Assembly: GCA_018814765.1 (NCBI GenBank)
Contig: JAHIZJ010000056.1
Location: forward strand, 1 to 32,903
DNA length: 32,903 nt
From: Patescibacteria group bacterium
GTDB lineage: Bacteria; Patescibacteriota; Patescibacteriia; JAHIZJ01
Reading direction: 5' to 3'
Shown: positions 3,143 through 5,312 of the stretch, piece after piece
Layout: each line of letters starts with the position of its first letter
How positions within the stretch are numbered: the stretch's first letter is position 1
Translations under genes and position numbers: made by a program
Notes under the pieces: model-generated
Told to the model about the DNA's origin: nothing
What the model saw: the letters and a program-made list of their open reading frames with translations, nothing else
The model's database searches: none

Positions 3143-4420
3143 ATGACGAAGAATACAATAACGAAGAAAAAACTCAAAAAAGCGGCTTCTAAGGCCAAAA
3201 CAACAAAAAAAATCAAGACAACAAAAAAGCTAAAAGTTTCAGTTGCAAAGAAAAAACCCGCTAAAAAGATTGTTGTCAAAAAGCGGACAAAGAAGCCTAC
3301 AGCAAAATCAGCCAAAGTAAAAAAAGAAGAAAAACCGCAAATTTCTATGGAGGCAGTAGAGGATTTATTAAGACGCGGACGGCAACGTGGCTTTGTTACA
3401 GAAAAAGAGATACTCTATTCATTTCCTGAAGTAGAGGAATATTTAGATGAATACGAAGATCTATTGGATAGTTTTAAAGAACAGGGCGTATCCATCGTAG
3501 AGTCTGATGCTGGCATACTTGATGACAAGGAAGAAGAGACCCCTGCAGAAAAAACCAAAGGACTGGCAGAAAGCCAACGTTTTGATTTGAGTGATATCTC
3601 TGATGATTCAATACAGATGTATTTACGAGAGATTGGCAAAGTCCCGCTTTTGAAACAAGAAGAAGAAGTCCAGCTAGCTAAGCTTAATGAAAAAGGAGAC
3701 ATTGAATCTGCCAAAAAAATGGTTCAAGCAAACCTGAGGCTGGTTGTTTCCATCGCTAAGAAATTTACTGGGCGTTCGCTTTCTCTCCTGGATCTTATAC
3801 AAGAGGGCAATATAGGTTTATTTAGGGCGGTGGAGAAATTTGACTATCGTAAGGGTTATAAATTTTCTACCTATGCCACCTGGTGGATACGTCAAGCTAT
3901 TACTAGAGCCTTGGCTGACCAGTCAAGGATCATCCGTATCCCTGTTCATATGGTGGAGACTATAAACAAATTTCAGCAGATTGAGCGCTCACTCATACAA
4001 GACTTAGGGCGAGAACCGCTACCTGAGGAAATCGCAGCTGAAATGGGTGAGGAAGTAGATAAGGTAAGGCATATTATGAAGATATCCCAAGACACTGTTT
4101 CTCTCGAAGCCTCTGTGGGGGAAGACGATGAAGATTCTACTCTGGGTGACTTTATTGAAGACGAAAAAACAATCTCGCCTGACAGGATTGCCTCTTTACA
4201 ATTATTAAAAGATCATGTAAAAGATATTATAAAAGAACTGCCACCACGTGAGCAGAAGATACTTGAAATGAGGTTTGGTTTACTTGATGGCGTGGCTCAT
4301 ACATTAGAAGAAGTGGGACAGGAGTTTGGTGTTACCCGTGAACGTATTCGTCAGATTGAAGCCAAGGCGCTAGAAAAGATTCAGGAACATAGAGGGATGA
4401 GAAAGTTGAAGGATTATTAA
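3143..4420 (+). CDS. rpoD: Primary RNA polymerase sigma factor RpoD/SigA
   Basis: The housekeeping sigma-70 factor that directs RNA polymerase to promoters. The 425 residues contain region 1.2 ([12 protein letters not shown]), region 2 with the core-binding and -10 recognition helix ([18 protein letters not shown], then [15 protein letters not shown]), region 3 ([13 protein letters not shown]) and region 4 with the -35 helix-turn-helix ([20 protein letters not shown]). All diagnostic residues are present, and short region-1.1-like sequence lies before region 1.2 (about 70-115). The first 66 residues are an unusual low-complexity tail in which lysine dominates, with Ala and Thr, resembling histone H1 tails. 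That tail is not part of the conserved sigma core. The gene follows dnaG. Confidence 0.96.
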
Positions 4421-4594: not shown

Positions 4595-4831
4595 ATGTAC
4601 ATAGTTTATACTATAAAAAGTCTAAAAAATCACAAAAGGTATGTTGGTTATACTGGTAAGAACGTTCAAGTAAGATTGTCTGAACATAATAGAGGATGCA
4701 ACAAGTGGTCAAGAGAAAACAGACCTTTCAAATTAATTTATCATGAAAGTTTTAGTACAAAAAGCGAAGCAATTAAAAGAGAAAAATTCTTAAAATCAGG
4801 TCAGGGTAGAAAGTTTTTAGATAAAAATTAA
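4595..4831 (+). CDS. GIY-YIG domain nuclease
   Basis: A stand-alone GIY-YIG nuclease of 78 residues. The two signature strands are seen as VYTIKS (4-9) and RYVGYTG (15-21), followed by the Arg/His/Asn helix RLSEHNRG (27-34), PFKLIYHESF with the metal-binding Glu, and the conserved SEAIKREKFLKSGQGRKFL end. The family includes small UPF0213-type proteins and homing endonucleases, and a DNA endonuclease activity is expected from the fold. The gene lies between a broken tRNA-Asn 5' half and the complete intron-containing tRNA-Asn, so a role in mobility of the locus is plausible but unproven. The leader is AT-rich without a Shine-Dalgarno site. Confidence 0.85.
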   Translation: MYIVYTIKSLKNHKRYVGYTGKNVQVRLSEHNRGCNKWSRENRPFKLIYHESFSTKSEAIKREKFLKSGQGRKFLDKN

Positions 4832-4848: not shown

Positions 4849-5140
4849 TCCGTGGTAGCTCAATGGTAGAGCAACCGGCTGTGAACATAAACGCAGCTCC
4901 CGACGGAAACGTTGGGATGAACTTTCCGGGATAACGGTGAAGGCTAAGCCTGCCTTATGTAGGTATGCTAATACCGTGGGAACCCACCTATGCTAAAGAT
5001 TTGGTGGGGCGCCGTAGAGACTAGATACCGGAATACCTAAATCCCCTCGGGAGATAAGGTAAAGATATAGTCCGTGCCGTATGGAAACATATGGATTACA
5101 TGTAACCGGTAGGTTGCCAGTTCGAGTCTGGCCCACGGAG
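4849..5140 (+). tRNA. tRNA-Asn (GUU) with intron
   Basis: Exons 4849-4882 and 5103-5140 join into a 72-nt cloverleaf. The acceptor stem is TCCGTGG/CCACGGA, the D arm GCTC/GAGC, the anticodon stem ACCGG/CCGGT with loop CTGTTAA (anticodon GTT), and the T arm GCCAG/CTGGC with loop TTCGAGT. The discriminator is G, as in bacterial tRNA-Asn, and CCA is not encoded. If the intron boundary is ignored the loop reads CTGTGAA, which suggests GTG (His). However, G73 and the lack of a -1 G pairing with C73 argue against His, and only the GUU reading puts a U before the intron and a G at its end. Flanks 4836-4847 and 5141-5152 also pair. Confidence 0.88.
4883..5102 (+). ncRNA. Group I self-splicing intron in tRNA-Asn
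   Basis: The 220-nt intron splits anticodon positions U35 and U36. The 5' exon end GGCTGT (4877-4882) pairs with intron GCAGCT (4893-4898), forming P1 with a U-G pair at the splice site. The intron ends in G (5102). The catalytic core shows the AGAGACTAGA segment (near 5018) and AAGATATAGTCC (near 5062), which form P7 through GACTA/TAGTC. ACCT/AGGT form P8 between them. A late hairpin CCGTATG-GAAA-CATATGG (near 5078) is P9 with a GNRA loop. No ORF lies inside the intron. It should splice with a guanosine cofactor. Confidence 0.88.
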
Positions 5141-5163
5141 CTGGGTGCTTATGTAAAGCATTG

Positions 5164-5233: not shown

Positions 5234-5312
5234 CCCCCTCAGCGCTGATTGCTTAGTCCTGAGCGAAGATCCTGAGTTCGTCGAAGGAGCGAAGTCGAAG
5301 GGTTTTGGGGGG
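5234..5312. repeat. C-rich to G-rich hairpin with CGAAG repeats
   Basis: Starts with CCCCC and ends with GGGGGG, so the ends can pair. The inside carries iterated TCCTGAG and CGAAG/GTCGAAGG units of a kind seen as dispersed intergenic repeats in many bacteria. It shares GCTGATTG with the hairpin at 6335-6373, and both precede HEPN-like genes. Confidence 0.5.

Follow-up and report, generated by a model that had tools for sequence, protein, structure and literature searches.

The bacterial tRNAs that classically host group I introns are tRNA-Leu(UAA), tRNA-fMet, tRNA-Ile(CAU) and tRNA-Arg(CCU). Among published accounts, introns of this kind are cited for bacterial tRNA-fMet and tRNA-Ile2 (PMC8450103) and for tRNA-Leu and tRNA-fMet (PMC4033280); the review PMC3984707 makes no mention of Asn, and our search of the open-licence literature turned up no paper in which tRNA-Asn, tRNA-Asp or tRNA-Tyr is named as a bacterial intron host. 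Some tRNAs of the closed genomes in PMC8172020, nearly all of them CPR, were stated in the relevant passage to have group I introns. These are introns of the same kind as those described here, in the same bacteria, and made the tRNAs hard to detect; that passage gives no tRNA, site or family, whereas the present analysis covers the host tRNA, the insertion site, the fold and how widely the introns occur. In CPR rRNA genes, group I introns are likewise described as common and as frequently accompanied by homing endonucleases (PMC11270868), although that work concerns insertions in 16S and 23S rRNA genes and does not treat tRNAs, which are the hosts here. Group I introns in the tRNAs of these bacteria had already been mentioned. 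What may be new is the set of hosts, the shifting position of the HNH gene and the presence of GIY-YIG genes next door, all described below.

The stretch of DNA that we analysed, called the window here, comprises 32,903 nucleotides from a Patescibacteria group bacterium and carries such an intron in a tRNA-Asn gene. Like the classical bacterial tRNA introns, it is inserted in the anticodon loop after a U and is a small ribozyme with GAAA loops on P2 and P9, and a core motif flanking P7 is common to it and the tRNA-Leu(UAA) introns in records of Oligoflexia (L246) and Deltaproteobacteria (L279). Unlike the classical introns, the lineage to which it belongs is found almost only in Patescibacteria, resides in tRNA-Asn, tRNA-Asp and tRNA-Tyr with the cut between positions 35 and 36 after CUGU, and has several members whose P1 loop contains an HNH nuclease gene. 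The Patescibacteria introns may resemble those of Azoarcus and cyanobacteria (subgroup IC3), a likeness supported only by the core motif shared with the two tRNA-Leu loci.

The intron of tRNA-Asn(GUU) and its fold

The locus is made up of the following features (positions in the window):

3143-4420, + strand: rpoD (ORF lists)
4595-4831, + strand: free-standing GIY-YIG endonuclease ORF of 78 aa, separated from the tRNA by 17 nt (Pfam PF01541, E 1.1e-16)
4849-4882, + strand: 5' exon of tRNA-Asn(GUU), positions 1-35, ending ...CCGGCUGU (ARAGORN with introns)
4883-5102, + strand: group I intron, 220 nt, no ORF (ARAGORN intron; RF00028, E 1.1e-11; covariation in relatives)
5102, + strand: omega-G, final intron base (G before the 3' exon invariant in the family alignment)
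5103-5141, + strand: 3' exon of tRNA-Asn, U36 to discriminator G73; CCA not encoded, CTGG next (sequence, ARAGORN)

When introns were allowed (option -i), ARAGORN read positions 4849-5141 of the window as a single tRNA-Asn(gtt) gene with a 220-nt intron at 4883-5102, and without introns it found no tRNA match in the window. A reading made earlier from the sequence alone (the sequence-only reading) had placed the intron between positions 35 and 36, with a spliced loop CTGTTAA, and had proposed a tRNA search on the spliced sequence. With ARAGORN, that search returned a standard cloverleaf tRNA-Asn with a GUU anticodon and exactly this loop, and the combination of G73 and GUU would be consistent with Asn identity. 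The end of the gene had been put at 5140 and actually lies at 5141. The remark in the sequence-only reading that the gene could be misread as tRNA-His was fair, because read-through past the 5' splice site gives the loop CUGUGAA and the anticodon GUG. Together, these results supported an intron that splits the anticodon of tRNA-Asn(GUU) after position 35.

The search with the Rfam group I model, likewise proposed beforehand, gave a full-length match to RF00028, with all 253 model positions matched at 48.5 bits (E 2.7e-11 to 1.1e-11). This is 1.5 bits below the gathering score of 50 bits; a default Rfam scan of the window listed nothing, and the intron is therefore missed by default annotation. 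Its folding energy was 4.5 sd below that of shuffles. We aligned 70 introns sharing the core motif and counted pairs on a structure written from the window row, from P1 to P9:

4879-4882, + strand: P1 5' strand, exonic CUGU, whose final U35 forms a U.G pair with G4893 at the splice site (invariant in 69/69 distinct rows)
4893-4896, + strand: P1 3' strand, internal guide GCAG (invariant in 69/69 distinct rows)
4899-4916, + strand: P2 hairpin, CCCGACG-GAAA-CGUUGGG (both-side changes in 7/7 pairs)
4924-4929, + strand: P3 5' strand, UUCCGG, partner 5028-5033 (100% paired; both-side changes in 4/6 pairs)
4934-4977, + strand: P4, 4934-4939/4972-4977, and P5, 4942-4944/4967-4969 (A-U to U-A at the P4 end, G-C to C-G in P5)
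4978-5013, + strand: P6, 4978-4979/5012-5013, and P6a, 4983-4988/5003-5008 (P6a: both-side changes in 6/6 pairs, 79.6% of cells paired)
5019-5023, + strand: P7 5' strand, GACUA, partner 5068-5072 UAGUC, guanosine-binding helix (100% paired, nearly invariant)
5034-5061, + strand: P8, 5034-5037/5058-5061 (99.6% paired; both-side changes in 3/4 pairs)
5074-5101, + strand: P9.0, 5074-5076/5099-5101, and P9 hairpin, 5077-5083/5088-5094, with GAAA loop (both-side changes: P9.0 3/3, P9 6/7)

Across the 70 relatives, 93.6% of cells formed standard pairs, compared to 38-44% when the partners were slid by 1-3 columns, a control that is somewhat favourable because the counted structure came from a single row. 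That origin has no bearing on how often both partners of a pair changed, and changes on both sides were seen in 32 of 53 pairs, in 647 cells compared to 197 after shuffling; the covariation score was 0.475 against 0.174 for shuffled data. The conserved core of P3, P4, P6, P7 and P8 is thus present in the alignment with covariation, which comes from P3, P4-P5, P6a and P8, since P6 and P7, though paired, hardly vary. The first pair of P5 is weak (unpaired in 36/69 rows), and the third pair of P9.0 is often unpaired in relatives. An archaeal-type (BHB) intron was set aside because the group I core is complete.

The structural detail in the sequence-only reading held up throughout. P1 forms as it had been drawn, 4877-4882 with 4893-4898, around the invariant core; the U that it noted before the 5' site is the U of the U35.G pair (UG in all 69 rows), the G at the intron end is G5102, and the P7, P8 and P9 that it had recognised were confirmed by the pair counts. 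The window intron is thus a group I intron of ordinary build, and it would presumably be catalytic. The CUGU of the pre-tRNA exon would pair with the guide GCAG to form P1, a guanosine bound at P7 would attack after U35, and the freed U35 would in turn attack after omega-G, leaving U35 joined to U36 in a normal tRNA-Asn. On the 3' side of the tRNA, the window also has a palindromic repeat of the CTGAGC..GTCGAAGG type (5262-5300), and similar repeats lie in the P6 regions of related introns (L215, L238 and L255).

Hosts, distribution and nucleases of the intron lineage

The core motif CCGTAGAGACTAGATACCRR was found at at least 114 loci in contigs, nearly all labelled Patescibacteria, and the intron subtype is nearly confined to this group among the loci listed. 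Two loci labelled Bacteroidetes (L220) and proteobacterium (L249) bear the Patescibacteria-type tRNA-Asn intron; these contigs are probably mis-binned. A tRNA host was assigned for 113 loci (109 core-motif loci and four from the window and class genomes), and among the matches listed the hosts were Asn in 56, Asp in 47 and Tyr in 10. Wherever the 5' site could be located with a short P1 loop, again among the matches listed, the intron followed CTGT and had the guide GCAG. The three host tRNAs all have GUN anticodons and have C32 U33 G34 U35 in common, and the lineage would accordingly insert after CUGU in the anticodon loops of GUN-anticodon tRNAs. Several intron-bearing tRNA-Asp genes (L212, L232, L239, L248 and L268) have an unusual T-arm (GGGGTCAGCACCC, no GTTC), and on a viral contig from IMG/VR (L317), a tRNA called Ile(tat) is interrupted by a group I intron related to these.

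On a tree of the introns (111 rows, 215 columns), the hosts required 11 changes, where the minimum possible is 2 and shuffled hosts, which are far less clustered, required 42. The figure of 11 is soft: with no more than 215 columns behind the tree, well-supported branches alone force few changes (1-3 per host). It is nonetheless unlikely that each host acquired its introns just once. The window intron falls in a group with its counterparts in G026 and G002, each of them in tRNA-Asn.

Introns of about 550 nt have an HNH ORF in the P1 loop, as in G014 (L071; 105 aa, PHROG HNH E 2.8e-26), and in the G001 intron this ORF is broken. A profile search of all loci placed the HNH family inside the intron in most cases. 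At three loci, the gene is not in the intron but immediately 5' of the interrupted tRNA-Asn (L003 in G026, 1151-1483; L004 in G002, 1139-1474; L308, 5422-5754), and at a few others it lies at a greater distance or close by on the other strand. The HNH protein matched no Pfam or NCBIfam family over the cut-off, while PHROG HNH families do match it. In the window, the HNH gene is absent from both the intron and the upstream slot, and a search of the window's genome found no HNH homologue. The many moves between Asn, Asp and Tyr genes would probably have occurred either by homing, driven by an HNH nuclease whose gene lies within the P1 loop or next to the tRNA, or by reverse splicing into the P1 target that the hosts have in common. 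The window copy has no HNH gene and is presumably now inherited passively.

Within the class of the window's genome, 156 of 380 genomes matched RF00028 with an E-value no higher than 1e-6, and 124 of the 380 had a match above the 50-bit cut-off, in introns of various hosts. A search pattern that starts at P7, requires a tRNA 3' exon beginning UAA and ends at the T-loop detected tRNA-Asn introns at the same site in at least 61 of the 380 genomes (62 before removal of the match in G310, an apparent chance match in which the bases after P7 are unlike those of the family), and the reversed pattern, used as a control, gave 0 matches in the 380. An intronless tRNA-Asn was found by pattern in 275 genomes. 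In this search, in which the tRNA-Asn patterns miss variant genes, no intronless tRNA-Asn was found in 40 of the 61 intron genomes, compared to 65 of the 319 others (Fisher P 1e-11), suggesting that the interrupted gene is usually the sole tRNA-Asn of the genomes that carry the intron. Splicing is presumably needed in those 40 genomes, since they had no intronless copy, and because this is the case for most intron genomes, the interrupted gene would have to yield a working tRNA.

The sequence-only reading had called Asn an unusual host. This holds relative to the classical list of Leu, fMet, Ile and Arg, but not in the window's class, where more of the RF00028 loci inspected lay in tRNA-Asn than in any other tRNA; the other main hosts were tRNA-Phe and 23S rRNA. 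The tRNA-Phe(GAA) genes (L079, L080, L084, L086 and others) have group I introns of a different type, apparently after U33, and those in 23S rRNA lie near GGCTGTTCGCCAATTAAA (L012, L017). In some genomes, several intron matches are close together on one contig, e.g., C18 of G038.

GIY-YIG genes beside tRNA genes

In the tRNA gene region of phage T4, a free-standing gene next to tRNA genes encodes SegB, a homing endonuclease of the GIY-YIG type. GIY-YIG genes of the window's type are likewise free-standing and adjoin tRNA genes; unlike SegB, they are chromosomal and lie beside many tRNA types, and they are described here by their genomic position. No description of GIY-YIG genes beside tRNA genes came up in the papers that we searched.

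In the window, the GIY-YIG ORF fills the space between rpoD and tRNA-Asn, and rpoD is also found 5' of the intron-bearing tRNA-Asn in G001, G002, G014 and G026 (ORF lists). The window's genome has 14 GIY-YIG genes including this one, and 10 of them lie within 300 nt of a tRNA, compared to 0.4 expected (P 1.5e-13). The same distance held for 4 of 5 GIY-YIG genes in G002, 5 of 10 in G026 and 1 of 4 in G001, and for 75 of 108 loci in other class genomes (among L318-L434), a share that comes from a non-random sample, as the loci had been ordered by how closely they resemble the window protein. With the window's genome counted, all 82 of the tRNA-near genes were on the strand of the tRNA; 63 lay upstream of it, the median gap being 30 nt. 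Nearest GIY-YIG neighbours shared the tRNA type in 39 of 81 cases, compared to 6.9 expected. Judged by sequence and position, this looks like a tRNA-tracking nuclease family. Homing would be the obvious reading of such placement, with a role in tRNA processing as the alternative.

Alternative readings and implications

Taken as a whole, the data are best explained by a small ribozyme without an ORF, inserted after U35 and belonging to a Patescibacteria lineage that has moved among Asn, Asp and Tyr tRNA genes, and we hold this explanation with high confidence. The source genome (1.38 Mb, 139 contigs, 98.7% complete) has the window intron as its sole RF00028 match, and about 47 tRNA genes, a count from RF00005 matches and patterns in which odd genes may be missed. 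Among these is a second tRNA-Asn(GUU), which has no intron and lies where the ends of contigs C89 and C130 overlap. The window copy may thus be redundant in this genome, and one could suppose that its intron has decayed and no longer splices, in a dead gene whose work is done by the intronless copy. An RF00028 score under the cut-off and a missing CCA, which most other tRNAs of this genome encode, would agree with that. We consider it very unlikely, however, given that the core strands of P3, P4, P7, P8 and P9 and the tRNA exons are intact, that the window pairs in every counted helix, and that the pattern search found no further tRNA-Asn in G026 and G002, where the gene has this same short intron and likewise lacks CCA. 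The idea that the exons join two bases out of register, giving tRNA-Thr(UGU), has next to no probability. ARAGORN does call L004 and others Thr(tgt), and a shifted intron would presumably also end in G in some relatives, but in the window it would end in A. Identity as tRNA-Thr was rejected on P1, whose invariant U.G pair fixes the site after U35, on the discriminator base (G73, against T73 in the Thr tRNAs of this genome), and on the intronless genes of the same type, which read CTGTTAA.

In the window, the ribozyme after U35 and the GIY-YIG gene meet at a single tRNA-Asn gene. Any link between the two is one that we infer. They could form a collaborative homing pair, in which the nuclease would cut intronless tRNA-Asn and repair would copy both; the ORF lies directly upstream on the same strand, HNH genes fill the same slot in the nearest intron relatives, and the GIY-YIG kin adjoining tRNA-Asn form a clustered group. 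Such a pairing is nevertheless doubtful, as the six closest relatives of the protein (L326-L330 and L332, 54-70% identical) all lie directly before intronless tRNA-Asn(GUU) genes, which argues that the nuclease is independent of the intron. We would give roughly even chances to a broader proposal, that two nuclease-linked sets of elements in this class both target tRNA genes: the intron that hops through the shared CUGU, with its HNH gene inside or just upstream, and same-strand GIY-YIG genes that tend to keep to one tRNA type per lineage, acting as homing endonucleases specific for tRNA genes or as nucleases in tRNA biology.

Because standard tRNA finders miss intron-bearing genes, many Patescibacteria would be scored as having no tRNA-Asn (or tRNA-Asp or tRNA-Tyr) although the gene is present. 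Where a ribozyme sits in the middle of the anticodon of what is apparently the only gene for an amino acid, the whole proteome would hinge on its splicing. With the nuclease in the intron, beside the gene or absent, and with three hosts sharing one 4-nt target, these introns form a natural series for testing ideas on the spread of group I introns between genes. If the GIY-YIG genes that adjoin tRNA genes are tRNA-specific, they would represent a widespread niche for mobile nucleases.
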